Shown here: in pieces, positions 2,485 through 18,332 of the stretch
Layout of the letters: each line of letters begins with the position of its first letter
Numbering within the stretch: the first letter of the stretch is position 1
Assembly: GCA_025361465.1 (NCBI GenBank)
Contig: JANYAG010000048.1
Location: 1-43,901, forward strand
From: Gemmatimonadota bacterium
GTDB taxonomy: Bacteria > Gemmatimonadota > Gemmatimonadetes > Gemmatimonadales > GWC2-71-9
DNA length: 43,901 nucleotides
Direction: 5' to 3'
Made by a program: the position numbers and the translations under genes
Notes under the pieces: model-generated
What the model saw: the letters and a program-made list of their open reading frames with translations, nothing else
What the model was told of the DNA's origin: nothing
The model's database searches: none

Positions 2485-2623
2485 GGTGCTCTCCTTCCTT
2501 TTCGTGACGTTCACACGAGTTGGTGCACCCAGCGCAATGGCCGGTGCATCCCCGGTGAGGGAACATGCCGTGGAGGACAAACAACGCCGCACACAACCCG
2601 ATGGCGATGACGGTTTGGCTCAC
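2474..2623 (-). CDS. 49-aa Cys-rich single-pass membrane protein, possible Rnf maturation factor
   Basis: A short gene with a GTG start at 2623 that overlaps the rnfA stop (GTGA) and ends 11 nt inside apbE. The product has one hydrophobic segment (residues about 3-20), then HRGCTGHCAGCTNSC with Cys26, 30, 33 and 37, and a charged His-rich tail (HEKEGEHH). It resembles the small FeoB-associated Cys-rich membrane proteins. In position and layout it also matches NqrM, the small Cys-containing membrane protein beside apbE that is needed to mature Na+-NQR. Inference: it may deliver iron or a cluster to the RnfA/RnfE site. Position, coupling and composition support a real gene; the function is a hypothesis. 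Confidence 0.75.
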   Translation of the reverse strand: MSQTVIAIGLCAALFVLHGMFPHRGCTGHCAGCTNSCERHEKEGEHHVG

Positions 2624-3198
2624 TGCGCGCTCCCCATGCCGGCGAAGCCCATGAACGCCATGGACAGGCACGACGCCACGACCAGCACCAGTCCCATGCG
2701 GCGCGCAATGACCGGCACGTCGGCCACTTCGATCCGTTCGCGGATCGAGGCCATCAGGGAGAGTGCCAGGGTCAGTCCGAGCCCGGCGCCGATGGCGAAC
2801 ACCAGCGATTCGATCAGGTTGTACCGGCGCGAGGTCTGGAACAGGGCCAGGCCGAGAATGGCGCAGTTGGTCGTGATCAGCGGGAGATAGATCCCCAGCT
2901 GCCGGAAGAGCACCGGGAAATGCTTCTTGACCGCCATCTCCACGATCTGCACGCCCGAGGCGACCACCACGATGAAGGCGATGGTGCGCAGGAACGGCGT
3001 CTGCATCAGCACGTAGGTGTTGAGCACCCAGGCGCCAACGGCGGTGAGCAGCAGCACGAAGGTATTCGCGAGGCCGAGGCGCCAGGCCGTCTCGATCTTC
3101 GCGGTGACGCCGAAGAAGGAGCACAGCCCCAGGAACATCACCAGGGTGAAGTTGTTGACCAGCAGGGTCGAGACGAAGATCCACGCCAGGTTGCTCAT
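2620..3198 (-). CDS. rnfA: Rnf electron transport complex subunit RnfA
   Basis: A 192-aa polytopic protein of the RnfA/NqrE family with about six membrane helices. It pairs with RnfE in the membrane, each contributing half of the ion path and cysteines for a shared [2Fe-2S] centre. The two expected cysteines are Cys26 (MFLGLCSFFG) and Cys112 (LITTNCAILG), at inverted-repeat positions. The ATG at 3198 overlaps the rnfE stop (ATGA); a longer start would extend into rnfE. Length is typical of the family. Confidence 0.96.
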   Translation of the reverse strand: MSNLAWIFVSTLLVNNFTLVMFLGLCSFFGVTAKIETAWRLGLANTFVLLLTAVGAWVLNTYVLMQTPFLRTIAFIVVVASGVQIVEMAVKKHFPVLFRQLGIYLPLITTNCAILGLALFQTSRRYNLIESLVFAIGAGLGLTLALSLMASIRERIEVADVPVIARRMGLVLVVASCLSMAFMGFAGMGSAQ

Positions 3199-3875
3199 GC
3201 GGCCCTCTCGGCGCGACGACGGCGGAACTCGATGATCCCCGCCAGGCCGAGGAGCGCGATTCCGAGGGTCAGGAAGCCGCCCGGAGGCATCACCATGAAG
3301 ACCCATGGCTCGAAGCGCGGCCCGAGAAGGTCGTAGCCCAGCAACGAACCGTTGCCGAGCAGTTCGCGGATGGCACTCAACAGGGACAGCGAGAAGGTGA
3401 AGCCCAATCCCATCCCGACCCCGTCGGCAACGGCGCGCACCGGCCCGACCTTGGCGGCAAACGCCTCCGCCCGGCCGAGCAGGAGGCAGTTGGCCACGAT
3501 CAGGGGCATGAACGGCCCCAGCGCCTTGCTGATGTCGGGGAAGGTGGCGGCGAGGATCATGTCGGCCAGCGTCACGAAGGTGGCGATGACCAGGATGTAG
3601 GTGGTGATCCGCACTTCATGGGCGATGTACTTGGCCACCAGCGAGACGATCAACCCGGAACCGACCAGCACGAAGAGCGTCGCCATGCCCATCGCGATGC
3701 CGTTGGCGAGCGTATTGGTGACCGCCATGGTGGGACACATCCCGAGAAACTGCACCATCACCGGATTTTCGCGCAGGATGCCGCGCCAGATATCGGCGAC
3801 GACCGTCGCGGGCGGCGGCGTCCCGGGAACGAACTCCGGCGTGCTGGTGGATTGGTCGGTTGTGATGGCGGTCAC
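3195..3875 (-). CDS. rnfE: Rnf electron transport complex subunit RnfE
   Basis: 226 aa, RnfE/NqrD family. After a variable 25-residue N-terminus comes WRGILRENPVMVQFLGMC, typical of RnfE, followed by about six membrane helices. Cys47 and Cys130 (LIVANCLLLGRAEAFA) are the partners of the RnfA cysteines at the membrane cluster. The GTG start at 3875 overlaps the rnfG stop (GTGA). No upstream start is plausible without intruding on rnfG. Confidence 0.95.
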   Translation of the reverse strand: MTAITTDQSTSTPEFVPGTPPPATVVADIWRGILRENPVMVQFLGMCPTMAVTNTLANGIAMGMATLFVLVGSGLIVSLVAKYIAHEVRITTYILVIATFVTLADMILAATFPDISKALGPFMPLIVANCLLLGRAEAFAAKVGPVRAVADGVGMGLGFTFSLSLLSAIRELLGNGSLLGYDLLGPRFEPWVFMVMPPGGFLTLGIALLGLAGIIEFRRRRAERAA

Positions 3876-4543
3876 TTGGCCCCTCCCCGGTCCCACGCGT
3901 CGAGCAGCGGGCGCCACTTGGCCACCGCATTGTTGATGATCCGGATCACGGCCCGCGAGGAGATGGTCGCCCCGGTGATGGTCTGGACCTCGCTGGGCGG
4001 CTTCCCTGCGCGGCCCTTGACCCCTTGGAGCGGCACGACGCGTCCGGTGAACTGGGCACCAAACAGGGAGTCCTTCTCGATCTTGTCGCCGAGCCCCGGC
4101 GTCTCCTTTTGGTCGAGCACCTTGTATCCGATCAACGCCCCGCTCGAGGGGTCGAACCCGATCATCAGCGTCAGCAGTTCCTGGAATCCCGGTTCGCTGG
4201 CCGTGATCGCGACACCCACCCGCTTGGCGGAGGCATCGAACCCGACGAACGCCTTGGGAAGGTCGATCGGATCTGCGCCGGACGGGACGGTGCGGGTGAG
4301 CGCGCCGTTCACGAGGTAGAGCGTGTCCCAGCGCGCGGGCGCCTTGAGCACCTCGCTCACGGCGGCGCGTTGCTGCTCGGCCGCGTGCTTCTGCACCGCG
4401 GGCAGGGTCACCTTGTAGACCGATACGACCAGCCAGCCCGACAGGGCGCCGGCAACGGCCAGGGTCAGCAGCAGGCGCCACGCCGGCGTGCTCTTGCCGG
4501 GCGTGAGCACGGCGGGAGTGCCGTGTTGATGCGTCGCGGTCAT
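3872..4543 (-). CDS. rnfG: Rnf complex FMN-binding subunit RnfG
   Basis: 223 aa: a Pro/Thr-rich leader, one membrane anchor (about residues 22-45) and an extracytoplasmic FMN-binding domain. The flavinylation motif TGATISS (190-196) places the covalent FMN on Thr193; ETPGLGDKIE (147-156) is the conserved loop near it. RnfG passes electrons between RnfD and the membrane cluster. ApbE, encoded at the end of the operon, should attach the FMN. The ATG at 4543 lies 4 bp after the permease gene. Confidence 0.95.
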   Translation of the reverse strand: MTATHQHGTPAVLTPGKSTPAWRLLLTLAVAGALSGWLVVSVYKVTLPAVQKHAAEQQRAAVSEVLKAPARWDTLYLVNGALTRTVPSGADPIDLPKAFVGFDASAKRVGVAITASEPGFQELLTLMIGFDPSSGALIGYKVLDQKETPGLGDKIEKDSLFGAQFTGRVVPLQGVKGRAGKPPSEVQTITGATISSRAVIRIINNAVAKWRPLLDAWDRGGAK

Positions 4544-4547
4544 GCCA

Positions 4548-5951
4548 TCACCTCTGGACCACCACCGGATGGGGTTGCGGTGCCATGAGAGTCACCGGAG
4601 TCGGCTCCACTGCGCCGCGCGGCCTGACGCCTGGGTGGAAGCCAAGCGTCAACATCAGGGCCGCGAAGCCGATGATGTAGGCCGCGGTGACAAACCACCC
4701 TTCCTTGAGCCACCTGGCCGCATTGCGCCCTTCGGGATACATGCTGACGAGTGCCACGCCGGCCGATGAGCCGAACCAGATCATCGAGCCGCCAAACCCG
4801 ACGGTGTAGGCCAGAACGCCCCAGTCATAGCCGCCTTGCTTGAGCGCCAGCGCCGTCAGCGGAATGTTGTCGAACACCGCCGAGACGAAGCCGAGCCCGA
4901 ACGCCGATTGCCAGCCCGCGGCCGGCAGGCGCTCGACCGGCATCATCGAGGCGCACAGCACCAGCGAGAGGAGGAAGGCCGCGCCCTTGAGCGCGGCGGG
5001 CATCAGGCTCCATTCCGGCTTGCGCAGCACGGTGGTCCCCAGGATGGCGACCCACACCGCGGCGCCCAGGAAGGGGAAGCGGTCCGACGATTCGGTGAAG
5101 CGGGTGTTGATCACCACATTGACGATGATCGCCGCCACCAGGATGGAAAGCACCACCGCGACCCGCACCCAGTCCACCCGCGCGTTGGCCGCATCGGCGC
5201 GGTGGATCGGGGAGTAGCTGTGCTGCTTCAGGGCGGCCGGAATGCCGCAGACGAACATCGCGATGAACGAACCGCCGTAGCCGTGGAGCACTTGCAGCGG
5301 GGGCACGCCGGCGATCCACATCATCGTGGTGGTGGTGTCGCCGACGACGCTGCCGGCGCCGCCGGCATTCGAGGCCGCCACGATCGCCGCCAGGTAGCCG
5401 ATATGGATCTTGCCGCGGAAGACGGTGTGCGCCACCGCACCACCGATCAGCGCCGCGGCGATGTTGTCGAGGAAGCTGGAAAGGATGCAGATCATCCACA
5501 GCAGTGCGAAGCCGCCGAGCCAGCCGTCGGGCAGGTACTTGGGCAGCGCGGCCGGCACCTCGCTGTTCTCGAAATGCCTGGCCAGCAGGGCGAAGCCGAC
5601 CAGCAGCAGCAGCAGGTTGGTCAGGATCACCCACTCACTCTGGAGATGCAGCCCGAAGCCCGTGAGGCCGGCACCGGTCCGGAATGGCGACGCGACGATC
5701 TTGTAGATCGCGATGCCGACCGCACCGATGATGGCGACCTTCATGGTCTGGTTGTGCAGGATCGCCACGCCCGCCAGCACCAGGCCGAACAGGATGAACT
5801 CGATCGGCACCGGGCCGAGCTGCGGACCCGAGAACCCGATCTCCGAGGCCGCGGCGAAGGCCCGGCCAGGCGATGCGAGGAGCAACAAGGCCGCGATACC
5901 GAGTGGGCGCATGGTCACCTTGCGAAACATCGAGGTTGAACTCGCACTCAC
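4548..5951 (-). CDS. NhaD/CitMHS-type ion-transporter-superfamily permease in the rnf operon
   Basis: 467 aa with about 11-12 hydrophobic segments. Two pseudo-symmetric DN motifs, SSFLDNIAAALIGG and SAVFDNIPLTALAL, mark the two re-entrant regions of the ArsB/NhaD/CitMHS ion-transporter superfamily; NAGGAGSVVGDTTTTMMWI is another family block. The likely substrate is Na+/H+ exchange or Na+-coupled organic acid uptake; sequence alone does not decide. The ATG at 5951 overlaps the rnfD stop (ATGA). A second ATG at 5912 would give a signal-peptide-like start (MRPLGIAALLLLASPGRAFA), so the mature N-terminus is open. It is not a standard Rnf subunit. Confidence 0.85.
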   Translation of the reverse strand: MSASSTSMFRKVTMRPLGIAALLLLASPGRAFAAASEIGFSGPQLGPVPIEFILFGLVLAGVAILHNQTMKVAIIGAVGIAIYKIVASPFRTGAGLTGFGLHLQSEWVILTNLLLLLVGFALLARHFENSEVPAALPKYLPDGWLGGFALLWMICILSSFLDNIAAALIGGAVAHTVFRGKIHIGYLAAIVAASNAGGAGSVVGDTTTTMMWIAGVPPLQVLHGYGGSFIAMFVCGIPAALKQHSYSPIHRADAANARVDWVRVAVVLSILVAAIIVNVVINTRFTESSDRFPFLGAAVWVAILGTTVLRKPEWSLMPAALKGAAFLLSLVLCASMMPVERLPAAGWQSAFGLGFVSAVFDNIPLTALALKQGGYDWGVLAYTVGFGGSMIWFGSSAGVALVSMYPEGRNAARWLKEGWFVTAAYIIGFAALMLTLGFHPGVRPRGAVEPTPVTLMAPQPHPVVVQR

Positions 5952-6952
5952 CGTGAGCTCCCCGGGTGGGTGCCGAAGACGCGCGGTTGGGTCGCCCGGT
6001 TGATGAAGGGCACCAGGGCATTCATGAACAGGATGGCGTACATCACGCCCTCGGGCAGCCCGCCCCAGATGCGAATCACCACCACCAGCGCACCGATCCC
6101 GCCCCCGAACACCCAGCGACCACGATTGGTGACCGGTGAGGTCACCATGTCAGTGGCCATATACACCGCGCCAAGCATCAGTCCGCCGGAAAAGAGCATG
6201 AACAGGGCGTCAGGCCGGCGCGGATCCACGAGGTGGATCACGGTACTGAGCACCGCCACCATCACCAGGATGCTGACCGGGATGCGCCAATTGAGGTACC
6301 GCTTCCACGCCAGGAAGGCACCGCAGGCGAGGATCAGCAAGGCCGCCGTCTCCCCCACCGATCCTCCGGTATTGCCGATGATCAGGTGCATCAGCCCGGT
6401 GGTCTTCCCCTCGAACTTCAGGAGACCGAGCGGGGTCGCCGAGGTGACGGCATCGAGCGACGGACGGGTGAACGGAAAGGCGAAGAGATCGCCCTTGAGT
6501 TGCAAGAACGGGCCACCAACCGTTGGCCAGGTGGTGATGGCGACCGGAAAGGCGGCCTGCAGGAAGGCCCGTCCGATCAGCGCGGGATTGAAGACATTCT
6601 GGCCCAGGCCACCCCAGACGACCTTCCCGAAACCGATCCCGAACGCGCCGCCAAGAAACGCCATCCAGAGCGGCATGCCCGAGGGCAGCGACAGGCCGAG
6701 GAGCAGGCCGGTGATGACCGCCGAGCCATCGGCCAGGGTACCCCCGCGGCCAATCGTGCGCTCCGTCAGCAACGCGCCGAGCGACGAGGCGGCGATCACC
6801 AGCAGGGCGCCAATGCCGAAGAACCACCCGGCGGCCACGATGATCGGGACCAGCGAGCCGACCACGTTCCACATGATCACCGGCGTGGAGTCCTGCGAGC
6901 GAACATGCGGTGAGGCGGTGACAACCAGCTTGGGCGTAATCGATTGGCTCAT
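5948..6952 (-). CDS. rnfD: Rnf complex subunit RnfD
   Basis: 334 aa, RnfD/NqrB family, with some ten membrane helices. The covalent FMN site is DAVTSATPLG (167-176), with Thr173 the expected acceptor. The usual Gly of the S/T-G-A-T motif is Ser here, a small deviation. GQNVFNPALIGRAF (117-130) is another family signature. The ATG at 6952 overlaps the rnfC stop (ATGA) and gives the usual N-terminus. The next gene is the permease rather than rnfG, which breaks the common C-D-G-E order. Confidence 0.95.
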   Translation of the reverse strand: MSQSITPKLVVTASPHVRSQDSTPVIMWNVVGSLVPIIVAAGWFFGIGALLVIAASSLGALLTERTIGRGGTLADGSAVITGLLLGLSLPSGMPLWMAFLGGAFGIGFGKVVWGGLGQNVFNPALIGRAFLQAAFPVAITTWPTVGGPFLQLKGDLFAFPFTRPSLDAVTSATPLGLLKFEGKTTGLMHLIIGNTGGSVGETAALLILACGAFLAWKRYLNWRIPVSILVMVAVLSTVIHLVDPRRPDALFMLFSGGLMLGAVYMATDMVTSPVTNRGRWVFGGGIGALVVVIRIWGGLPEGVMYAILFMNALVPFINRATQPRVFGTHPGSSR

Positions 6953-8277
6953 GTGGCACCAGCCTTGACGCGCCGCAGCGCGGCCTTGCTCGCCTGGAAG
7001 AGCTGGGCAAGCGGAATGTTCGACGGGCAGACATAGGCGCACGAACCGCAGAGCATGCAATCGGCCAGGTGCTCGTCAACCATGTCCTTGAAGCGGTGCA
7101 CCCGGGCGAAGTCACCCAGGAGCGACGGATTGAGGAACACCGGACAGGCCTCGAGGCAACGCCCACAGTGGATGCAGGGATAGACCTTGTCGAGCCGGGT
7201 CTCGTGTTTCTCGAGCACCACCACTCCGGTGGTGCCCTTGACGACCGGCGCGTCCAGATTGGCCTGCGCCTGCCCCATCATCGGGCCGCCGATGATCACC
7301 TCGGCCGCATCGGGGGTCACGCCATCACAGAAGGCCAGCAGGTCGCGGAGCTTGGTGCCGACCGGGACGATCAGGTTGGCGGGACGGCGAAGGCCGTGCC
7401 CCGAGACGGTGACGATCCGCTCGATCAGCGGCAACCCGGTCTCGAACACCTCGGCGATGGCCGCCACCGAGCCGACGTTCTGCACCACCACCCCGACGCT
7501 CACCGGCAACTTGCCCGAGGGAACTTCGATCCCGGTCACTGCCTGGATCAGCATCTTCTCAGCACCCTGCGGGTACTTCACCGTCAGCGGCAGGATGGTG
7601 ATGTCGAGATCGGTCGGCAACGCCTGTTGCAGCGCCGCGATCGCGTCAGGCTTGTTCCGTTCGACGCCCACGACGCACTTGGGGACCCCCATGGATTGCA
7701 TCATGACCCGGATCCCGAACAGCACCCGGTCGGGGTACTCTGCCATGGTGCGATGGTCCGACGTCAGGTAGGGCTCGCACTCGGCCCCGTTGATGATCAG
7801 CGTGTGCACCACGAAGTCCGCCGGTGGAGCCAGCTTCACATGGGTCGGGAACGCCGCGCCCCCCAGCCCGACGACGCCGGCGTCCTGCACCGCCTGCACC
7901 ACCTGGTCGACCGTGAGTCCCTCCCAGTGCGGCACCATCCGCGGCCGGGTCATCTGGGGCGCGTAGCGGTCCACCTTGATCCGCACCGCCATCGCCATCG
8001 TCCCGTCGGGATGCGGCCACCAGCCGATGTCCGTCACCGTGCCGGACGCCGAGGCGTGGATCGGGACCGAGATCCAGCCATCGGCCAGACCGACCGGATC
8101 GCCGCGTTCGACATGGTCCCCCACCTTGACGCACAGCGTGGCCGGGTTGCCGGCGTGCTGCCGCAGCGGCAGGACAATCTCGTCGGGATACGGCATCCGT
8201 CGGATCGGGAGTTGACTGGTCAACTCCTTCTCTTCACGAGGATGCACACCGTGACGGAACCCTGAGGAGAGTCTCAT
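6949..8277 (-). CDS. rnfC: Rnf complex NADH-binding Fe-S subunit RnfC
   Basis: 442 aa. It opens with the family hallmark F-x-H-G-V-H-P-x-E-x-K (residues 7-18). The nucleotide/flavin-binding region includes GLGGAAFPTHVK (137-148) and INGAECEPYLT (162-172). Two [4Fe-4S] motifs follow: Cys368/371/374/378 (CIHCGRCLEACP) and Cys407/410/413/417 (CMLCGSCAYVCP). It lacks the long Ala/Lys-rich tail of enterobacterial RnfC. RnfC exchanges electrons with NAD+/NADH at the cytoplasmic face. It begins 7 bp after the oxidoreductase gene, which separates it from rnfB. Confidence 0.96.
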   Translation of the reverse strand: MRLSSGFRHGVHPREEKELTSQLPIRRMPYPDEIVLPLRQHAGNPATLCVKVGDHVERGDPVGLADGWISVPIHASASGTVTDIGWWPHPDGTMAMAVRIKVDRYAPQMTRPRMVPHWEGLTVDQVVQAVQDAGVVGLGGAAFPTHVKLAPPADFVVHTLIINGAECEPYLTSDHRTMAEYPDRVLFGIRVMMQSMGVPKCVVGVERNKPDAIAALQQALPTDLDITILPLTVKYPQGAEKMLIQAVTGIEVPSGKLPVSVGVVVQNVGSVAAIAEVFETGLPLIERIVTVSGHGLRRPANLIVPVGTKLRDLLAFCDGVTPDAAEVIIGGPMMGQAQANLDAPVVKGTTGVVVLEKHETRLDKVYPCIHCGRCLEACPVFLNPSLLGDFARVHRFKDMVDEHLADCMLCGSCAYVCPSNIPLAQLFQASKAALRRVKAGAT

Positions 8278-8284
8278 CCGATGA

Positions 8285-11200
8285 TCAATTGAACTTCGCC
8301 GCGCGTGCGATCCACTTCTCGAGGTCCTTCTCCTTGGAATTCAGCGGGGTGCCGGGATGGATGATCGCCACCGGGCAGCGCTCCGCGGCCGTGACCAACT
8401 GGGCGAACGTGCCAGCCTTGGGGTCCTTGATGACCGCCTGCTTGGTGGCGTTGTACACGAACATCTTCTTGTTGGCGTTGATGCATTCGTTGCACGTGGT
8501 GCAGCGCGCCGAATCGATCCACGGCGCAATGACCATGGCGTCGTCGTCTTCGGCCGTGGGCGCCGCGGCCACTGCGGCGACCGGGGCCTTGGCCGGCGCT
8601 GCCGAGGCCGGGACGTTCGTCACTGGTGCGGCGACCGGGGCGGCCCCGGCGGGCCGCGGCCGTGTCAACGCCGGCAACTCGGCCAGGAACTCCGCCACCG
8701 CCGCCGAGCCGCCAGCCTTGGTGAGCAGCGCCGACGCCAGCCGGCGCGCCATCTGCGCCGGATAGGTCGCGCGGAGGTCGGCCAGTTTCGCTTCATAGTC
8801 GGCCCGCAGCGAGGCCGTCCGGGTTTCGAATTCCGCCTCGACCGAGCTCGCCACCTGGTCGCGAACGCTCGGGGCGATCTCCAACCCGGCGAGTTGGCGC
8901 AGCTGTGACCAGAATTGCTGCCGCTCTTCCGCCAGGTGCACGATCTCGCTCGACACGCTGAGCCGGCGCAGCGTGCGATCCTTCGCGAGCGCCAGGATGT
9001 AGGGGGCATGACCATCGCGCTCCGCGGGGGCAAGCGCGAGATACTCGTGGAACGGCATCATCGCGTCGTCCCACGTGGTCGACGGCACCTCGGCGAAGTG
9101 TTGCTTGAAGCGGCCCTCGGTGGCGGCCCAATCGGCGATGGTCACCGGCAGTTCGAGGGTTTGCTCCGCCCCCGCGCCGTCGAGGTACTTCAACGTGTAG
9201 GTGGGCCAGGCGTCCTCGACCGAGGGATTGCCCTCGAGCGACAACTGGTCGGCATAGGTCGGCCCGGCCTCGGGGTCGAACGTGAGGAACGGGAACGCCC
9301 GGCTTTCCAGCGCCAGGCGAGCCGAGTGCTGCGACGAGTCGTCGGCCAGCCCGTGCTCGACCGGGCAGGGTGTGTACACATTGATCAGCACCGGGCGGCG
9401 CTTGTGCAGGCCCCTCAGCACGCCGCCAATCAGGTGCGACGCCGAGGCTTGCGACGTCTGGTGGACATAGACGCCGCGATGCGCGATGGCGATCAACGCC
9501 AGTTCCTTGCGGACTTCGGTCTTGCCATGCTGCGCCTTGCCGAAGCCGGACATGTCGGCCACCTGTCCCGTGAAGCCCGAGGTGCAGGCCTGGCCACCAG
9601 TGTTGGAGTACACCTGCGTGTCGAGCACCACGACGCGGATCGGCTTGCCGCTCGCCAGCAGGCGCGAGAGGTTCTGGAAGCCGATGTCGAGCATCGCGCC
9701 GTCGCCGCCCATCGCGACGATCGGCGGGCAGAGGGCGAATTCGTCGTCGGTGAACTGCTGCCAGGTGAGCAGCGCCAGGGCCGGTTCATGGAGCGCCGCG
9801 TCGTAGCCGCCGTCGGTCAGCAGTTCGGCGCGACGGATGAGGGCGAAGTTGTCCGCCATCTTGCGCATGTGGGCCTCGAACAGCCCGATCGCGACCGACG
9901 TCGAATCCTGGAAGAGATGGCTCACCCACGGGAACGGATACGGATTGTAGGGATAGGTGCCGCCCCAGACCGAAGAGCAGCCGGTGCTGTTGGCCATCCC
10001 CATCGGGGCACGCCCGGTGCCGCTCGGCCCCGCTTCGTAGCGCCACTTGAGGTCCTTCAGCGCGGCGATGGTGCGGTTGAGCAGCATCAGCTGCTCCTGC
10101 TTGGCCGCATCGATCGGCACGGCCACCGAGCCACCGCCCTGGGCGGCCGCATCGAGGTCGGCGCCCGAGGCGATCAGCTCACGCGCTTCCCGGTCAAGGG
10201 CAGCGAGCAGTTCGTCGAGATGGGCGACGTACCGCTCGATGCGCGGCTGCATCGACGCGAAGATCGAGGAGACGATCAGGTGGACCGCGGTCTTCTCGCC
10301 ACAGCCCATGCAGGCGCCGTCGCCGCCAACCATGGAACGGTAGGTGGCCTTCTTGAGCAGCAGCGAGGACAGCACGCCGATGCCCTCGTCCACATCGCTC
10401 ACGTTGACGAAGCGATTGTCGGTGTCGGGCAGCCGCTGCCAGATGGCCCAATTGCGGCGCAGCTGCTCGAGCGAGGCGTCATCCTGCCGGACCGACACGA
10501 GCGCGCCGTCGGGACAGACCTCGACGCAGAGATTGCACCCCTTGCAGGCCTCGGGATTGACCGTGATCGAGAGCAGGCCGCCGGAGCCCTTCTCCTTCCC
10601 TTCGATCGCGTCAAAGAACGGCCGGGTCCGCGCCACCGGGAACTCGGCCAGCCGCGGCTGCACCACCGCGAACTCCTGGTCGGTCGCCGCGCGACGATCG
10701 GCGTCCCACTTCAGCTTGTCCGCGACGGTCGCATAGCCCTTGGCGAACGCCTCGGTCACCGCCAGCGACGGCTCCTTGGCCAGGAGACGCTGGACTTCCT
10801 TGCCCCAGGGCTTGGCGACCGGCCGCAGGCGATCGACCGTGTGACTGGTGGCCGCCGCTCCGATCGCCGCAGTGATGACCTCCTCGGGGCTGTTGACCAG
10901 CCCGGGGATGGCGGCATCGGGACACTGGGTCCAGCACTGCGCACAGCCGGTGCAGTTGGCGGCCACGAACGCCGGGATCTCCATCCGCACGCCGCTCATG
11001 TCGCGCACCGCGCCGGTGGCGGCCGGGATCGCGCTGATCGCCGCAAACGGATCGGCGATGCCGTCCTGCCCCATCACGCAGAGCGAACACACCTGCTCCC
11101 AGAACCGGCCCGGATTGCCGATGCCCTGCTGGGCGTCGATCACGTCGAGCGAGCCGGGAATGTGCGGGACGGTGCCGAGCGCCATGCTCGCCTCGACCGC

Positions 11201-13321
11201 CGTGGCATCCACCACCAGCACCTGGTCAAACCCGCGGCGAATGACGCGGAGGTTGTCTTCCACCACCGCCTCGCCGCGATGGCCGAACTTCTTCTTGAAC
11301 TGGGCACGGATGCCCTCGAACAGGCGGGCTTCGGTCGTCTCCTCGCGCTGCAGCAGCGGCGAGGTGTTGAAGAAGGCCCCGAGGAACGCCGCACCCTGCA
11401 TCCGGTAGCGCAACTCGACGTCGGACGCTTCTTCCCGCGCGATGGCGAAGGCGTCGAGCACATAGACCCGGATCTTCCGCTCGCGGATGGTCGCGCGCGC
11501 CTGGGCCGGAAGGGTGAGCCAGAACTCGGCCGGGCTCAGGTCGCTCTGGATCACGAAGACGCCACCCGCGGCGAGGCCGGCGAGCGGATCGCTGTGCCGG
11601 AAGACATTCGGGTCGGGCGAGAGGACGACATCGACGTGCCGGAGTTCGCAGTTGAGGCGCACCGGCTCGTGCGACAGCACGGCATAGAACGTCGTCGGCT
11701 GACCCTTCTTTTCCGAGCCGTACTTGGGATTGGCCTTGATCTGCATCCCGAAGAGCTCGAACGCCGTCATCGCGAGGTTCTTGCCCATCGTGATGGCGCC
11801 CCAGCCACCGACGGAGTGGATCCGCACCGCGGTCGAGCCTTCGGGCAGGAGGTTCAGGTCGCCGGCCGACGTGAGCGACAGCTCCCCGATCTCGGGATAG
11901 CTGTCGAGCATCCGTTCCTGCCAGATCTGCAACTTCGGGAGCTTGGTCTCGCGGCGGATGAAGTCGATGCCCAGGTAGAACTGGCGCTTCTGGGCGCCCT
12001 TGGGCAGCATGTTGTCGACGGCCGCGACGATATCGCCGGGCTGCAGGTCGCGGCTGCCGAGGCCGAAACAGCCGGAATGGAAGTTGGGCACCTGGCCTGC
12101 GCCGAGCGCGGCGAGCCCCGGGAATGCGACGGCGCCGCCGGTCGCGACGCGGCCGTTCTCGACCGCCTGCGAGATGGCCGAGCGGATTTCGCGCAGCAGC
12201 GGGGGATCAACAGCCAGCGGCTGGTCGGTACGCTCGAGGACGACGACAGCCTTCTTGCCGGCGAGGGCATGACTGATCAGGTCGGCCGGGAACGGCCGGA
12301 ACATCGTCAGGTTGAGGACACCAATTGCCAGGCCACGCGTGGCGCGCAGGTGATCGACCACCGCCTCGGCATTGGCGACGACCGAGCCCTGTCCGACGAT
12401 CACGTATTCCGCATCGTCGAGACGGTAGCCGGAGACCCGGGCGTACCGGCGACCGGTGAGGGCGGCGAACTCGGCGAACGCCTGGTCGGTCAGGCTGGTG
12501 ATGTGATCGAAATAGAAGGGCCGCTGGGCGGCGACACCTTGGGCGTAGCTGTCCTGGTTCTGCACCACGCCGAGCATCGCCGGGTAATCGAAGTCGAACA
12601 TCTCCGGAATCCGGCGGCGCATCTCCCCGAACACCAGGCGCTGTGACGGCGTCGGCGAGGGGATCATGTCGGCGGGATCGCCGAGATACGTCTTGATGAG
12701 TTCGCGCTCCGGGAGGAGGAGCGACTCGATCACATGGGAGGTGAGGAAGCCGTCCTGGGCGCAGATGCCCGGGTTGAGCGACAGCTCGGCGATCCGGTGG
12801 GCGACCAGGTTGAGGTCGGCCGCTTCCTGGACATCCTTGGCGAACAGCTGGAAGAAGCCGGTGTCGTCGACCGCGTGATAGTCATCGTGACCGGCGTGGA
12901 CATTGAGGGCGTGCTTGGTCATCGCGCGGGCGGCGATGTTGAGCACATACGTCAGCCGCTTGCCGACGGCCGCGTAGAGCGACTCGTGCATGTAGGCGAT
13001 GCCCTGCCCGCTCGAGAAGTTGGTCGCGCGCAGGCCGGACATCGCCATCCCGGCGGTGACCGCGGCGGCGGCATGCTCGCCTTCGGGTTCGAAGAAGAGG
13101 AGGCGCCGGCCGTTGACGTTCAGCTTCCCTTCGGCGACCGCCTGGGCCCACCCTTCACCCATCTGGGTGGAGGGAGTGATCGGATAGGCGCCGGCCGCCT
13201 CGCCGGCGGCAATCTCCATGGCCACGACCGCGGCGCTGCCGTCGAGCGCCTCCAGCGTGCCGGGATAGCGCGGCGTTTCGGGCGCCTTGGAACTGCGCGG
13301 ACTGCGAAGAATCGACGTCAT
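8285..13321 (-). CDS. nifJ: Pyruvate:ferredoxin (flavodoxin) oxidoreductase, single chain with extra C-terminal ferredoxin domain
   Basis: Oxidises pyruvate and CoA to acetyl-CoA and CO2, reducing ferredoxin. Order along 1678 aa: pyrimidine-binding domain with YPITPST (46-52); domain II; gamma-like domain with HSVGGWGAITMGKN (502-515); two-cluster ferredoxin domain (Cys790/793/796/800 and Cys926/929/932/936); TPP domain with GDGACMGCGEKT (Cys1004, Cys1007), STGCSS (Cys1115), GGDGAML (1205-1211), QVYSNTGGQ (1236-1244) and Cys1319, the four cysteines of the proximal cluster. Classical enzymes have about 1170-1200 aa. The additional 350 or so residues hold a coiled-coil-like stretch (about 1455-1545), an Ala/Pro linker (1550-1595) and a one-cluster ferredoxin-like end (Cys1607/1610/1613 and Cys1649-Pro). 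The ATG at 13321 overlaps the rnfB stop. Pyruvate is the likeliest substrate, not proven. Confidence 0.93.
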   Translation of the reverse strand: MTSILRSPRSSKAPETPRYPGTLEALDGSAAVVAMEIAAGEAAGAYPITPSTQMGEGWAQAVAEGKLNVNGRRLLFFEPEGEHAAAAVTAGMAMSGLRATNFSSGQGIAYMHESLYAAVGKRLTYVLNIAARAMTKHALNVHAGHDDYHAVDDTGFFQLFAKDVQEAADLNLVAHRIAELSLNPGICAQDGFLTSHVIESLLLPERELIKTYLGDPADMIPSPTPSQRLVFGEMRRRIPEMFDFDYPAMLGVVQNQDSYAQGVAAQRPFYFDHITSLTDQAFAEFAALTGRRYARVSGYRLDDAEYVIVGQGSVVANAEAVVDHLRATRGLAIGVLNLTMFRPFPADLISHALAGKKAVVVLERTDQPLAVDPPLLREIRSAISQAVENGRVATGGAVAFPGLAALGAGQVPNFHSGCFGLGSRDLQPGDIVAAVDNMLPKGAQKRQFYLGIDFIRRETKLPKLQIWQERMLDSYPEIGELSLTSAGDLNLLPEGSTAVRIHSVGGWGAITMGKNLAMTAFELFGMQIKANPKYGSEKKGQPTTFYAVLSHEPVRLNCELRHVDVVLSPDPNVFRHSDPLAGLAAGGVFVIQSDLSPAEFWLTLPAQARATIRERKIRVYVLDAFAIAREEASDVELRYRMQGAAFLGAFFNTSPLLQREETTEARLFEGIRAQFKKKFGHRGEAVVEDNLRVIRRGFDQVLVVDATAVEASMALGTVPHIPGSLDVIDAQQGIGNPGRFWEQVCSLCVMGQDGIADPFAAISAIPAATGAVRDMSGVRMEIPAFVAANCTGCAQCWTQCPDAAIPGLVNSPEEVITAAIGAAATSHTVDRLRPVAKPWGKEVQRLLAKEPSLAVTEAFAKGYATVADKLKWDADRRAATDQEFAVVQPRLAEFPVARTRPFFDAIEGKEKGSGGLLSITVNPEACKGCNLCVEVCPDGALVSVRQDDASLEQLRRNWAIWQRLPDTDNRFVNVSDVDEGIGVLSSLLLKKATYRSMVGGDGACMGCGEKTAVHLIVSSIFASMQPRIERYVAHLDELLAALDREARELIASGADLDAAAQGGGSVAVPIDAAKQEQLMLLNRTIAALKDLKWRYEAGPSGTGRAPMGMANSTGCSSVWGGTYPYNPYPFPWVSHLFQDSTSVAIGLFEAHMRKMADNFALIRRAELLTDGGYDAALHEPALALLTWQQFTDDEFALCPPIVAMGGDGAMLDIGFQNLSRLLASGKPIRVVVLDTQVYSNTGGQACTSGFTGQVADMSGFGKAQHGKTEVRKELALIAIAHRGVYVHQTSQASASHLIGGVLRGLHKRRPVLINVYTPCPVEHGLADDSSQHSARLALESRAFPFLTFDPEAGPTYADQLSLEGNPSVEDAWPTYTLKYLDGAGAEQTLELPVTIADWAATEGRFKQHFAEVPSTTWDDAMMPFHEYLALAPAERDGHAPYILALAKDRTLRRLSVSSEIVHLAEERQQFWSQLRQLAGLEIAPSVRDQVASSVEAEFETRTASLRADYEAKLADLRATYPAQMARRLASALLTKAGGSAAVAEFLAELPALTRPRPAGAAPVAAPVTNVPASAAPAKAPVAAVAAAPTAEDDDAMVIAPWIDSARCTTCNECINANKKMFVYNATKQAVIKDPKAGTFAQLVTAAERCPVAIIHPGTPLNSKEKDLEKWIARAAKFN

Positions 13322-14157
13322 GCTTCCGTGCTCCCAGCCAAAGACGGCATGCGGACGAATTGCGCTCCGTCCAGCCATACGATCGCGCCGGTCGGACAGC
13401 GGGTCACTGCCTGCCGATCGGCCTGTGCGTTGAGTTCATAGTTCACTGTCGCCACACCACTGCTGACACTGATCAGTCCCGGCGCGGCATCCTGCACGCA
13501 CTTGCCGCAGGTCGTGCACGCCACCTGACACTGGTCCAGCACCTCGTCGCCGGCGAGGAGGTTCTTGCACTGCACCAGGAGCCGTTGTTCCACGGGCTGG
13601 AGCACGAACAGTCCCTTCGGGCAGGCCTCGACGCAGTCACCACACGCAGTGCAGGTGACCGGGTCGACCACCGGGAGCCCGGTGTCGCTCATCGTGATCG
13701 CCTTGAAGGCGCACACCCGAGCGCAATCGGCGAGGGAGAGGCAGCCCCAGGCGCAGCCCTTCCCGCCTCCGGCCACGGCCGCGGCCGCGGCACACGTGGG
13801 GAGCCCGCGGTATTCGGCCTGCGACACCGCGACGTCGGTTCCGCCGGCACAGAGCAGTCGCGCGACGCGCCGCTGTGCGGTCCCCGCCGCGACGCCGAGG
13901 AAACCGGCAATCGCCTTGTGCACATCATCGCTGCCCACCGAACACTTCGTCGGCGCGATGATCCCCTCAACCGCCTGCTCGGCAAACGCCCGGCAGCCCG
14001 GCAGCCCGCACGCGCCACAGTTGGCGTTGGGCAGCATCGAGGCGACCGCGTCGATCCGGGGATCTTCCCAGACCCACAGCTTCCGGTTGGCCAGCGCGAT
14101 GAAGACCGCGAAGACCAGCCCCACTCCACCAACAATCAGGATCGCGAGCAGTGTCAT
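13318..14157 (-). CDS. rnfB: Rnf complex ferredoxin-accepting Fe-S subunit RnfB, extended form
   Basis: 279 aa: membrane anchor (residues 3-23), then the four-Cys domain LPNANCGACGLPGC (Cys47/50/55, with Cys72), then ferredoxin domains with Cys135/139/145/149 and Cys169/172/175/179. Beyond these lies a further Cys-rich segment with Cys210/214/217/220 and Cys254-Pro, which could hold one more cluster. Proteobacterial RnfB (about 190 aa) ends earlier; acetogen RnfB is similarly extended. RnfB is the entry point for electrons from reduced ferredoxin. The ATG at 14157 precedes the hydrophobic anchor, 22 bp after the 333-aa gene. It is separated from rnfC by the oxidoreductase gene. Confidence 0.95.
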   Translation of the reverse strand: MTLLAILIVGGVGLVFAVFIALANRKLWVWEDPRIDAVASMLPNANCGACGLPGCRAFAEQAVEGIIAPTKCSVGSDDVHKAIAGFLGVAAGTAQRRVARLLCAGGTDVAVSQAEYRGLPTCAAAAAVAGGGKGCAWGCLSLADCARVCAFKAITMSDTGLPVVDPVTCTACGDCVEACPKGLFVLQPVEQRLLVQCKNLLAGDEVLDQCQVACTTCGKCVQDAAPGLISVSSGVATVNYELNAQADRQAVTRCPTGAIVWLDGAQFVRMPSLAGSTEA

Positions 14158-14179
14158 CGTGACGATTTCCGCATCGGTA

Positions 14180-15181
14180 TCAGCTCTCCCCCAGCCCGGA
14201 TGCACCAAGCAGCCACGCCGCGATCTTCTCCACCGCATCGTCGCCGCTGCCTGCGCGCGGAGCCGATCCGGCACTCGCCGGCGCGGCGATCGGTGCGCGA
14301 GCCAGATCTTCCAGCATGGTTCGGTCTTCCGCCATCTGCCAGGCGCTCATGCCACTGATGGCACGCTTGGGCACCTCGCCCAGCGTCCCCACCGTCAACC
14401 GCTGCCACGGCTCGCGCCCGGCGGCCGGGTCGTGGCAGAAGACCGCGGCGCCGGCCGGCATCACCGCCCCGATCGCCGGCCCGTCAGACAGGGCGACCCG
14501 ATCGAGTCCGCTGCCGTCGATGGTCTGCAACACCAGCGTACCGGGGGTGATGCAGCGCGCGAGTGGCGCCGGCGCCGACGCGCCCCGCACCACCAGCACG
14601 ATCTTCTCGCGACCGTCGGCAAAATCACTCAGGGCCCCGACGTGCAGGTCGGCCCCGTCGAGCGAGACGATCAGGGGCGGGGCGTACCGCCGCTCGGTCT
14701 TGCCCCAGGCACGGAAGTCCAGCGGATCGAGCAACCGATCATGCTCGCTGGCCTGGTAGCGTCCCCCGCGCACCACATCGGTCAGGATCACCGCACCAAA
14801 TGCCCGCCCGAATTCCGCCAGCGCGTCGTTGACCGTGGCACCCAGTCGGCCGCCCGTGGGGAGAGCGATCAGGAAGGCATCCGTGCCGCGCTCGGCGATC
14901 GCGCGCAGCGTGGCGCTGGCACGAGTGAGCGCGGCCACCGCCGCGGGGGACACCGGCGGCACCGCGGGGAAGAGCGTGGCGAACCGCGCCGCGTCCACCC
15001 GGCCGGCTGCAAATTGTCCCAGTGCAATCCCGGCGCGACCGGCCTGCTGACTGCTGTCGGCGGCCTGCTCCGCGAGGAACGCTTCGGCGAGGGCGAGGGC
15101 GCGTTGAATGATCGCGCGAAATTCGGCGATCGGCCGCTCCATGGCCGCCGTGGCCAGGGCAAAGCGCGCGTCAGACGGCAT
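14180..15181 (-). CDS. 333-aa protein of unknown function between korB and rnfB
   Basis: A soluble-looking protein with no membrane segment, signal peptide or CxxC motif (only two Cys, in LARCITPG and VFCHDP). Residues about 1-60 are Ala-rich and helical; a central alpha/beta part includes FLIALPTGGRLGATVNDALAEF and SLDGADLHVGALSDF; the last 40 residues are Ala/Pro/Gly-rich and end in a short helix. The ATG at 15181 lies inside the korB end (11-nt overlap); an ATG at 15142 is an alternative. The tight position between a 2-oxoacid oxidoreductase and RnfB suggests an accessory or docking role, but I recognise no family. Confidence 0.8.
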   Translation of the reverse strand: MPSDARFALATAAMERPIAEFRAIIQRALALAEAFLAEQAADSSQQAGRAGIALGQFAAGRVDAARFATLFPAVPPVSPAAVAALTRASATLRAIAERGTDAFLIALPTGGRLGATVNDALAEFGRAFGAVILTDVVRGGRYQASEHDRLLDPLDFRAWGKTERRYAPPLIVSLDGADLHVGALSDFADGREKIVLVVRGASAPAPLARCITPGTLVLQTIDGSGLDRVALSDGPAIGAVMPAGAAVFCHDPAAGREPWQRLTVGTLGEVPKRAISGMSAWQMAEDRTMLEDLARAPIAAPASAGSAPRAGSGDDAVEKIAAWLLGASGLGES

Positions 15182-16127
15182 AGCGATCCAGCTCCGCTTC
15201 CATCAGGGTGATCCGCTCGTCGGCGGTGCGCGGCGCCACGCGCAGGAGGTCTTCGTAGCGCGGCCGCGACGGATCGCGGAACAGCACACCGAGGTGGATG
15301 TGGTCGGTGCTCTCGGCGATTCGGCGCGCCGCGTCGAGATCATGCGGATCGTGCGCGACCTGGGTCTTGTAGATCTTCTCGAGATCAGGCACCACCACGC
15401 CGTCGTCGTGGGTCAGCAACGCAATGCGGGCGGGGTCCTGCACCGCCGCCTGGTAGACGGCCGCGGAGTACACCGGACACCGCTGCAGGATGCGCACGAA
15501 GCTCAGGCCGCGATGGTGATAGGCCTCTCGCAGCGTGGCATAGAGGTGCGCCGGGGCCCACTCGGCGGTCTGGGCCACGAACGAGGCGTTGGTCACGCCC
15601 AGCGACACCGTGAGCGGATTGAGCGACGGAAGCCGACTCCCGTTCGGTTGCGTGTTGCTGGGAAATCCCTGCGGGGTGGTCGGTGAGGTCTGCTTCTTCG
15701 TCAGCGCGTAGATGCCGTTGTCGAGGAGGAGGACCGTCATGTTGATGTTGTAGCGCAGGGCGTGGATCCAGTGCGCCGCACCGATCGACGTGCAGTCGCC
15801 ATCGCCCATGACAACAAAGACCGTGAGGTCGGGACGGCTCAGCTTGACGCCGGTCGCCACCGGCAGCGCGCGGCCATGGATGCCGTGGAAGCCGTAGGTC
15901 TTGAGATAATGCGGAAACCGGCTTGAGCAGCCGATGCCCGAGACGAACACCGTCTGTTCCGGGGTGAGCTGCTCGGCGGTCAGCAGCCGCTGCACCGCGG
16001 TCAGGACCGAATGATCGCCGCAACCGGGGCACCAGCGCGCGCGCGCGCCCTCGTAGTCACTCAGCTCGTACTCGGCATCGTGCTCGTCCGGCTGCAGGAC
16101 CGGCAGGAGCCCGCAGGCGATTGTCAT
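15171..16127 (-). CDS. korB: 2-oxoacid:ferredoxin oxidoreductase subunit beta (TPP/Fe-S), KorB type
   Basis: 318 aa. Binds thiamine diphosphate and a [4Fe-4S] cluster: RWCPGCGDHSVL (Cys33, Cys36), GIGCSSRF (Cys67) and QRCPVY (Cys217). The TPP fold shows GDGDCTSIGAAHWIHALRYN (108-127) and DNGIYALTKKQTSPT (136-150), the latter typical of 2-oxoglutarate-type beta subunits. With KorA it should convert 2-oxoglutarate and CoA to succinyl-CoA, CO2 and reduced ferredoxin. The ATG at 16127 overlaps the korA stop (ATGA). Closely related enzymes accept other 2-oxoacids, so the substrate is an inference. Confidence 0.93.
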   Translation of the reverse strand: MTIACGLLPVLQPDEHDAEYELSDYEGARARWCPGCGDHSVLTAVQRLLTAEQLTPEQTVFVSGIGCSSRFPHYLKTYGFHGIHGRALPVATGVKLSRPDLTVFVVMGDGDCTSIGAAHWIHALRYNINMTVLLLDNGIYALTKKQTSPTTPQGFPSNTQPNGSRLPSLNPLTVSLGVTNASFVAQTAEWAPAHLYATLREAYHHRGLSFVRILQRCPVYSAAVYQAAVQDPARIALLTHDDGVVVPDLEKIYKTQVAHDPHDLDAARRIAESTDHIHLGVLFRDPSRPRYEDLLRVAPRTADERITLMEAELDRYAV

Positions 16128-18016
16128 GCTGCACCTCCCCGCGGCATCCGCTCGCGAATGGCATCCACAATGGATCCGGGACGCAACGGCTCGCCCGGGA
16201 CCCGGGTCCAGCAATCGACGTCCACGAGCGTGGTCGCGCGCAACAGCCAGCTCAGCTGCCCGCGGCGACGGTTCTCCTCCGTGATGAACGGGTCACCCAG
16301 TTCATCGCTGTAGTTGATCTCCACCGTGCAGACCTTCTTGAACTTCGCGAAGATCGCCTTCAGGCCCGGCTCAAGGGGCGAGAGGAAGCGCAGGTGCACC
16401 GATGAAACCCGCATCCCCTCGCGCTTCGCCCGATCCACCGCTTCCTCGATCGCGCCCTTGGTGCTCCCCCAGCCGACCAGCAGCAGGTCGCCCTGGTCGT
16501 CCCCGTACACCGGCGGTGGCGTCAGCATGTTCTGCAGCACGGCCAGCTTGCGGCTGCGCATCGCCGAGCTGTGCTGATGCACGCCCGAGCTGTAGGCCAC
16601 CTTGCTGCGGTTGTCGTGTGAGAGACCGGTGACGGTGTAGGCCCCGCCCGGCTGCCCAGGAATGATCCGCGGGGAAAGCCCGGTCTCCTCGTTCCAGTCG
16701 TAGGCGTGCTGTCCGGCGGCGACCGGCGGCAGGTCGAGCGGAGCCGCCTGCCAGCGGGCATCCAGCTTCGGCCGGGGAAACGGCGTCACACCGGTGGCGA
16801 GGTTGGCGTCGCTGAGCACCATCACCACGGTGCGGAATGCCTCGGCGATCCGGCGCGCGGTGATCATGACATGGAAGCACTCTTCGATCGTGGCAGGCGC
16901 CAGGACCACGTGCGGGGAGTCGCCGGGACTGGCGTACATCGCCGCGAGCAGGTCCGACTGCTCCACCTTGGTCGGCAGCCCCGTGCTGGGACCGCCGCGC
17001 TGCACATCGATGAGCACCAGCGGCATCTCGGTCATCACGGCCAGGCCGAGGAACTCCGTCTTGAGCGCAAGCCCCGGCCCCGACGTCACGGTGAGCGCCA
17101 CCTTGCCGGCGTAGGATGCGCCGATCGCCACGCCCACGGCGGCGATCTCATCCTCCGCCTGGTGCACCACGCCGCCGAAGCGTTCGAACACTTCGCTCAG
17201 GTAGTGCGACACCGAGGTCGCCGGGGTGATCGGATACATCGCGCAGAGCTCCATCCCGGCGGCGACCGCCCCGAGACCCAGCGCCTCGTTGCCGTTCATC
17301 ACGATCAGTGGCTCGGTGACCGGTGCTGGCGGCACCTCGATGCGGAAGTCGATGTGCGCTTCAGCCCAGGCGTAACCGAGCATGAGCAGGGCGACGTTCT
17401 GTTCGTAGACCTGTTCACTCTTCTTGCGGAAGGTCTCGGCGATCTGCTCCTTGATGCGCGCCATGTCGCTGGTGTAAATGCACGCCAGCATTCCGAGCGC
17501 GAACATGTTCTTCCCCTTGCGGGGATTGTCGACGAGGGTGAGGCACTCCACCTCCATCGGCACCGGGATGATGCGGTAGTGCTGGCCCGAGAGCTCGGCC
17601 ATCCCGGCTTCCCAGGCGGCGCGAATGTCCGCGTCCTCGTCGCTGGCCCACTTGTCCTCGACCAGCAGCACGGCGTCAGGCGCCAATGCCTCCAACCGAT
17701 GCCGGGCCAGCAAGACCTGCTCGTTGAAGGCGACGACGAGGTTGGTCGAATCGCCCCAATTGGTCACCGGTCGTTCGCCGATGCGAATCCGGAAGCCGCT
17801 GGCGCCTTCGGGAATCCGCGGCGGCGGCTGGATCTCGGCCGGAATGATCTCAACGGTCCAGACGCCGTTACCCATCTTGGCGCAGACCGCGCCGAAGATC
17901 TGGCCGCACTTCTGGGCGCCTTCCCCGGAGTCGGAGACGATCTCGAGGGTGTGCTCGGGCAGTCGCCGGACGCGCGGCTTGGTCGGGACAATGGTGGCGG
18001 ACGTGGTGGCAGTCAC
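16124..18016 (-). CDS. korA: 2-oxoacid:ferredoxin oxidoreductase subunit alpha (gamma-alpha fusion), KorA type
   Basis: 630 aa, the usual size of fused KorA. The gamma domain comes first (about residues 20-225, starting IVSDSGEGAQKCGQIF); the pyrimidine-binding alpha domain follows from 235, with NGNEALGLGAVAAGMELCAM then YPITPATSVSHYLSE, and a transketolase-like C-terminal part (DLLLVGWGSTKGAIEEAV). The GTG at 18016 is the only start that keeps the whole gamma domain without running far into the preceding gene; the next ATG (residue 48) would remove the first strand. It follows the antitoxin-like gene by 13 bp and overlaps korB by 4 nt. Confidence 0.93.
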   Translation of the reverse strand: MTATTSATIVPTKPRVRRLPEHTLEIVSDSGEGAQKCGQIFGAVCAKMGNGVWTVEIIPAEIQPPPRIPEGASGFRIRIGERPVTNWGDSTNLVVAFNEQVLLARHRLEALAPDAVLLVEDKWASDEDADIRAAWEAGMAELSGQHYRIIPVPMEVECLTLVDNPRKGKNMFALGMLACIYTSDMARIKEQIAETFRKKSEQVYEQNVALLMLGYAWAEAHIDFRIEVPPAPVTEPLIVMNGNEALGLGAVAAGMELCAMYPITPATSVSHYLSEVFERFGGVVHQAEDEIAAVGVAIGASYAGKVALTVTSGPGLALKTEFLGLAVMTEMPLVLIDVQRGGPSTGLPTKVEQSDLLAAMYASPGDSPHVVLAPATIEECFHVMITARRIAEAFRTVVMVLSDANLATGVTPFPRPKLDARWQAAPLDLPPVAAGQHAYDWNEETGLSPRIIPGQPGGAYTVTGLSHDNRSKVAYSSGVHQHSSAMRSRKLAVLQNMLTPPPVYGDDQGDLLLVGWGSTKGAIEEAVDRAKREGMRVSSVHLRFLSPLEPGLKAIFAKFKKVCTVEINYSDELGDPFITEENRRRGQLSWLLRATTLVDVDCWTRVPGEPLRPGSIVDAIRERMPRGGAA

Positions 18017-18029
18017 GGGGTGAGCATCC

Positions 18030-18332
18030 TCACTCGAGGAGGCGCGAGCTGGATGGCTCGGCCAGGCTCTTCGGGGGTTCGACAACGGGAACGATGGAGG
18101 GCACAGGCTGTTCGGTCGCCTGCATCTCGCGCAGATGCGCCAGTTCACTCAGGAGGTCCTCGTAGACCGCCGGATCAAGCAGCACCGCAGCACTGCGACC
18201 ATGCTGAGTGAGGATCACCGTGCACTTGGTGCTGCGGATCTGTTCGAGGAAAGCTGAGGCGTTCGCCCGGAATTCAGTGACCGGGCGGACATCCTGCGCG
18301 GGGCGGAGGCGGGACATGTTACGGTGCGTCAT
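18030..18332 (-). CDS. Orphan Phd/YefM-type antitoxin-like DNA-binding protein
   Basis: 100 aa (95 if the second ATG at 18317 is used). The block RPVTEFRANASAFLEQI, then TVILTQHGRSAAVLLDPAVYEDLL, is the Phd/YefM fold: a dimeric DNA-binding N-terminal domain that autoregulates its operon. The normal disordered toxin-binding tail is replaced by a Pro/Glu/Ser-rich end. No RelE-, YoeB- or Doc-like toxin gene lies on either side; the next gene, 13 bp away, is korA. It is therefore the first gene of the KGOR-PFOR-Rnf unit and may act as its local regulator (inference). Confidence 0.8.
   Translation of the reverse strand: MTHRNMSRLRPAQDVRPVTEFRANASAFLEQIRSTKCTVILTQHGRSAAVLLDPAVYEDLLSELAHLREMQATEQPVPSIVPVVEPPKSLAEPSSSRLLE

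Follow-up and report, generated by a model that had tools for sequence, protein, structure and literature searches.

The usual view, to our knowledge, is that the only link between pyruvate:ferredoxin oxidoreductase (PFOR) and the Rnf complex is a common pool of soluble ferredoxin. In the pyruvate:NADP+ oxidoreductase of Euglena and Cryptosporidium, PFOR is fused at its C terminus to a flavoprotein reductase, and in the PFOR of D. africanus, a C-terminal extension has a protective role. On the receiving side, RnfB is the ferredoxin acceptor of Rnf and has a flexible ferredoxin domain of its own (PMC12174285). In synthetic ferredoxin fusions joined by flexible linkers, flux was raised in a manner that depended on linker length (PMC2847965). 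The window examined here, meaning the whole stretch of 43,901 nucleotides that was analyzed (contig C338 of G000, a Gemmatimonadota-type metagenome genome that is 87% complete), encodes a PFOR-type enzyme that ends in a ferredoxin-like tail and lies among rnf genes. Because tailed PFORs are found almost always within an rnf gene set, the arrangement points to a direct route for pyruvate electrons into the Rnf pump. We found no earlier description, in what was mainly the open-access literature, of an rnf operon whose PFOR bears a ferredoxin tail, and the placement of PFOR before rnfC is undescribed in PMC12174285 or PMC4014512.

Encoded on the minus strand, with its ATG at 13321 and its stop at 8285, the protein has 1678 residues (Table 1). 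The chain is 446 residues longer than D. africanus PFOR (1232 residues) and 507 longer than Moorella PFOR (1171 residues). An earlier note on this DNA, made from the sequence, had put the addition at about 350 residues; the extra length is there, but it comes to about 450–500. It falls in three places: a helical insert (801–925), a coiled coil (1008–1112), and some 200 residues at the C terminus. Pfam, alignment, and the predicted model all agree with the note's picture of an oversized PFOR with a coiled coil, an Ala/Pro linker, and an extra ferredoxin-like domain, and its numbering of the last cysteines, Cys1607/1610/1613 and Cys1649-Pro, is exact when the ATG at 13321 is taken as the start.

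Table 1. Features of the PFOR chain and its operon (positions in the window; aa, residues of the PFOR chain)
Feature	Position	Strand	Basis
korA	16124-18148	-	korAB matches: TIGR03710 538 bits (cut-off 483); TIGR02177 237 bits (cut-off 262, missed)
korB	15171-16214	-	korAB (15171..18148), two-subunit 2-oxoacid:acceptor oxidoreductase
u333	14180..15181	-	no Pfam or NCBIfam match; operon-conserved
rnfB (electron input subunit)	13318..14274	-	PF04060; best NCBIfam NF005504 203 bits; TIGR01944 58 (cut-off 68.7, missed)
Long PFOR-type 2-oxoacid:ferredoxin oxidoreductase with tethered ferredoxin	8285..13321	-	1678 aa
POR_N (pyrimidine-binding ThDP domain)	12659..13213	-	PF01855 155 bits (cut-off 27)
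PFOR_II domain	12164..12412	-	PF17147 62 bits (cut-off 27)
POR (gamma-type) domain	11225..11809	-	PF01558 105 bits (cut-off 27.4)
Internal two-cluster ferredoxin domain, Cys790/793/796/800 + Cys926/929/932/936	10514..10954	-	alignment to D. africanus/Moorella PFOR
Coiled-coil insert, aa 1008-1112	9986..10300	-	helices 249-293 and 313-337 of model; alignment
ThDP-binding (beta-type) domain, GGDGA...NTGGQ	9377..9724	-	PF02775 30 bits (cut-off 21.9); alignment to PFOR structures
C-terminal extension, aa 1346-1480, retained by untailed long PFORs	8882..9286	-	homologue comparison
Second coiled coil, aa 1481-1540	8702..8881	-	helix 725-775 of model
Ala/Pro-rich flexible linker, aa 1541-1597	8531..8701	-	model pLDDT <50
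Tail, single [4Fe-4S]-type ferredoxin domain (predicted), Cys1607/1610/1613/1649	8288..8530	-	PF13370 26.4 bits (cut-off 24.5)
rnfC	6949..8277	-	TIGR01945 521 bits (cut-off 246); start 8 nt past PFOR stop
rnfD	5948..7060	-	TIGR01946 320 bits (cut-off 207)
NhaD-like antiporter	4548..5951	-	NF038006 46.5 bits (below cut-off 80)
rnfG	3872..4543	-	TIGR01947 108 bits (cut-off 102)
rnfE (start approximate)	3195..3890	-	NF009070 217 bits (cut-off 184); TIGR01948 203 (cut-off 213, missed)
rnfA	2620..3306	-	TIGR01943 215 bits (just under cut-off 229)
apbE-like flavin transferase	1492..2592	-	NF007774 102 bits (cut-off 498, missed); ApbE family by similarity

The catalytic chain is complete, as had been claimed. 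The four catalytic domains (POR_N, PFOR_II, POR, and TPP_enzyme_C) follow in canonical order above their Pfam cut-offs, and alignment to the D. africanus and Moorella enzymes locates all 12 PFOR cluster cysteines (790/793/796/800, 926/929/932/936, and 1004/1007/1115/1319). These 12 are invariant in 21/21 long homologues; for the internal two-cluster ferredoxin domain, the cysteines also show no change in 17/17 tailed homologues. The helical insert of about 125 residues, which the model builds as helices, parts the two cysteine quartets of that domain, and the first coiled coil sits between the proximal-cluster ligands Cys1007 and Cys1115. The chain scores 401 bits against TIGR02176 (NifJ) and misses the equivalog cut-off of 911 bits, whereas canonical PFORs from this phylum, when complete, reach 1600–1860 bits; judged by these scores, the enzyme is of PFOR type but has diverged deeply and lies outside the equivalog. 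Its active-site motifs are kept in the alignment, and the substrate is most likely pyruvate.

Beyond the second coiled coil, the linker spans about 50–57 residues (26–70 in relatives), of which 53% are Ala or Pro. The earlier note was right about a flexible Ala/Pro linker but put its length at about 45. It is the least conserved segment of the chain and is disordered in the model. The tail that follows (residues 1598–1678) has a CxxCxxC motif with a remote cysteine, and its four cysteines are invariant in 45/45 tail sequences. The tail's overall conservation is close to that of the ThDP domain. Modeled with a pLDDT of 92.7, it finds its best fold match in the Protein Data Bank in D. africanus ferredoxin I (1fxr; root mean square deviation 1.1 Å, TM score 0.83 by target length), which is also its best match in sequence (E = 1.3e-9). 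In a 919-residue model, the tail region has a pLDDT of around 50 or less, and the tail is left unplaced. Four cysteines that never vary beside the least conserved segment of the chain represent more than chance. Conservation and modeling together support a single-[4Fe-4S]-type ferredoxin domain, with a predicted cluster, on a flexible tether, which bears out the single-cluster domain that the earlier note had proposed; the combination of linker and tail is the pattern expected for a tethered mobile carrier.

The operon reads korA, korB, u333, rnfB, PFOR, rnfC, rnfD, the gene for an NhaD-like protein, rnfG, rnfE, rnfA, and an apbE-like gene. All six Rnf core subunits are encoded; rnfC, rnfD, rnfE, and rnfG pass a curated cut-off, and rnfA and rnfB fall under their TIGR cut-offs, yet have Rnf families as their best matches. 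The PFOR start codon shares 4 nucleotides with the rnfB stop (ATGA), so that RnfB is indeed encoded by an overlapping upstream gene at this locus, as the earlier note had stated, but this does not hold as a general rule. RnfB had to be rejected as a fixed neighbor because the Bacteroidota loci have rnfB downstream of rnfA; the constant neighbor of the tailed PFOR is rnfC. The genes korA, korB, and u333 belong to the operon in Gemmatimonadota and Planctomycetota, and the Bacteroidota loci with a tailed PFOR and rnf have no korAB within the flanks examined. A Pfam scan found no ferredoxin domain in KorA or KorB. When u333 was compared with the PFOR beta domain, hhalign gave a score of 44.9, against at most 22.1 for 60 column shuffles and 23.4 for the reversed sequence, and by this measure u333 is a degenerate relative of that domain. 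The gene for an NhaD-like sodium/proton antiporter between rnfD and rnfG is particular to this locus, with no match in the other rnf loci; its product may close a sodium circuit with an Na+-pumping Rnf.

The association of tail and rnf is nearly one-to-one. Among 200 genomes of the Gemmatimonadota phylum, the tail (match at E < 1e-30) is present in 41 and rnfC (match at E <= 1e-20) in 46; 40 genomes have both, 1 has only the tail, 6 have only rnfC, and 153 have neither (Fisher p = 1.8e-34, a value that treats the genomes as independent and, because they are related, overstates the evidence). By match coordinates, the end of the tail lies no more than 190 nucleotides from rnfC in 39 of the 40 genomes with both. 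The other is G204, where the two are on different contigs and the tailed PFOR (L068, 9316–9957) has no rnfC after it. The six genomes with rnfC and no strong tail match belong to another family and have separate canonical PFORs. Seven genomes with a canonical PFOR of about 1200 residues (G026, G030, G109, G183, G197, G198, and G201) were checked and have no rnfC; among them, only G030 gives a strong tail match, on another protein. G070 carries a canonical PFOR plus a tailed PFOR with rnfC. Within the window's own genus, the distribution is patchy (G009 has tail and rnfC; G001, G003, G005, and G006 have neither), which suggests repeated joint gain or loss.

A pattern scan of GTDB genomes with one protein as query, which also served as the search for the tail outside the phylum, returned 17 loci, and rnfC comes next wherever the contig extends past PFOR. 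The same order is seen in Planctomycetota and Bacteroidota records, and a cultured isolate, Robertkochia sediminum (L020), has the arrangement. Most loci come from metagenome-assembled genomes, and the Planctomycetota and Gammaproteobacteria labels may reflect binning. Loci under these labels (L010, L009, and L016) carry the operon with sequences that nest among those of Gemmatimonadota, through either horizontal transfer or binning error.

The earlier note had accepted that its reading would fail if long PFORs proved common and unlinked to rnf. Length alone is in fact unlinked. Four long PFORs of 1500–1589 residues (L082, L083, L084, and L085) occur in genomes without rnfC: 1500 residues in G064, 1575 in G100, 1581 in G153, and 1589 in G077. 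All four lack linker and tail and keep 12/12 enzyme cluster cysteines. Because such chains exist, length was rejected as the rnf-linked trait; tailed chains, by contrast, are linked to rnf (40/41). In the tree, L082 (from G064) lies within the tailed clade (UFBoot 91/92/99), and the other three lie outside it. L082 has probably lost its tail secondarily, and from its nested position, tail and rnf apparently disappeared in concert. On these sequence comparisons, the trait that follows rnf is the tail, not length, and the link is a genuine one that pertains to the tail in particular.

The tail also appears on two proteins from genomes without rnf. In G030, a genome without rnfC, a 672-residue protein (L061, 588–2606, minus strand) consists of a degenerate second half of PFOR followed by a linker and ferredoxin tail. 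Its N-terminal part matches the PFOR second half (hhalign E = 6.7e-28) and has lost the enzyme cluster cysteines. Its gene adjoins korB/korA and NfnAB-like genes, and the KorA and KorB there are 57% and 51% identical to those of the operon. In G305, whose genome has no rnfC, a protein of 165 residues (L086, 7999–8496, minus strand) comprises the end of the C-terminal extension, the linker, and the tail. Such proteins imply that the module is able to work with partners or ferredoxin-dependent systems other than these. In two single-contig genomes, G144 (L065, L087) and G174 (L064, L088), the PFOR gene appears split between distant places. A true split was rejected for G144, where both halves terminate in runs of N (scaffold gaps); G174 shares the pattern of two distant halves.

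These observations fit a mechanism in which the PFOR-type enzyme would convert a 2-oxoacid (most likely pyruvate) into acyl-CoA and CO2, with the electrons running through its three built-in [4Fe-4S] clusters. At the distal cluster, the ferredoxin-I-like tail, if it assembles its predicted cluster, would collect these electrons; its Ala/Pro tether of about 50 residues would let it swing across and hand them to the same-operon Rnf complex on the side where electrons enter. Rnf would then reduce NAD+ with export of Na+ or H+, although in principle the flow could also run backward. The docking partner would presumably be RnfB, given its known role; as RnfB has a flexible ferredoxin domain, a tether on the PFOR side would add a second swinging carrier. 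We think it probable, though well short of assured, that the tail acts as a captive ferredoxin that feeds PFOR electrons into the same-operon Rnf, such that the whole would form an energy-conserving pyruvate:NAD+ oxidoreductase. A stronger version, which we advance only tentatively and rather doubt, is that PFOR and Rnf form a dedicated membrane supercomplex that pumps ions as a pyruvate:NAD+ oxidoreductase, with the tethered ferredoxin in place of a diffusible one. The earlier note had suggested shuttling "without free ferredoxin." The window's genome encodes an FdxA-type free ferredoxin, however, and the dispensability of a free carrier is thus unsupported. A role for PFOR as the sole route from pyruvate is likewise unsupported, as E1 dehydrogenase genes are present.

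Other roles for the tail would account for part of these data. It could be a local hub, a captive ferredoxin that serves its enzyme and several partners, among them KorAB or u333, free FdxA, and Rnf. KorA and KorB, which have no ferredoxin domain by Pfam, share the operon with u333 in two phyla, and G030, which lacks rnf, has the tail on a protein with a degenerate PFOR half, encoded next to KorAB and NfnAB, as such a hub would allow. But the tailed PFOR occurs with rnf in Bacteroidota with no korAB in the flanks examined, and the long PFORs of rnfC-less genomes have no tail, and we consider the hub unlikely, although it deserves serious attention. Less probable still is a mainly structural or protective tail, acting in oxygen shielding or membrane recruitment while electrons leave through free ferredoxin. 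The C-terminal extension of D. africanus PFOR offers a precedent and FdxA an exit, but protection alone needs neither four ligand cysteines nor a ferredoxin I fold, both of which are kept in 45/45 sequences, and long PFORs without rnf manage without the tail.

It is also conceivable that the tail was a neutral gain carried along in a horizontally inherited operon and that its association with rnf reflects linkage rather than function. The genomes are related, and the operon apparently moves as a block, with Planctomycetota and "Gammaproteobacteria" records nesting among Gemmatimonadota. Against this, the linker drifts but the tail is held at roughly the conservation level of the ThDP domain, which suggests purifying selection comparable to that on the enzyme body, and the loss in L082 took linker and tail and left the enzyme intact. 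We regard neutrality as very improbable. A captive ferredoxin that delivers electrons to Rnf remains our preferred reading.

If this reading is right, the tailed PFOR beside rnfC, found across phyla, would be a natural case of electron channeling into an ion pump. Under the more doubtful supercomplex version, the operon would go further and supply a functional equivalent of pyruvate dehydrogenase that conserves energy, in lineages that are not known for classical Rnf-based fermentation. Near relatives without tail and without rnf provide a ready comparison, and the arrangement in cultured R. sediminum makes the idea directly testable.

Set beside known systems, the tailed enzyme resembles homodimeric PFORs (D. 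africanus, 1b0p/7plm; Moorella, 6cin) in domain order, ThDP motif, and the 12 ligand cysteines, but it is about 450–500 residues longer, with helical and coiled-coil inserts, a linker, and a tail predicted to hold a fourth cluster. The tail shares with D. africanus ferredoxin I (1fxr/1dax) the CxxCxxC...C motif, the fold to within 1.1 Å, and sequence similarity at E 1.3e-9; unlike that protein, it is covalently joined to an oxidoreductase and has a conserved HPG...R C terminus. As in operons for Rnf (ferredoxin:NAD+ oxidoreductase), rnfA, B, C, D, E, and G are accompanied by an apbE-like gene, whereas here PFOR directly precedes rnfC, and korAB and u333 lie upstream. Engineered hydrogenase-ferredoxin fusions (PMC2847965) also channel electrons through a ferredoxin on a flexible linker, but they are synthetic, and the tether is on the acceptor rather than on PFOR. 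Our system and pyruvate:NADP+ oxidoreductase both have an electron-transfer module joined downstream of the PFOR C terminus; here, however, that module is a putatively mobile ferredoxin, and the NAD-reducing machinery is a separate membrane pump.
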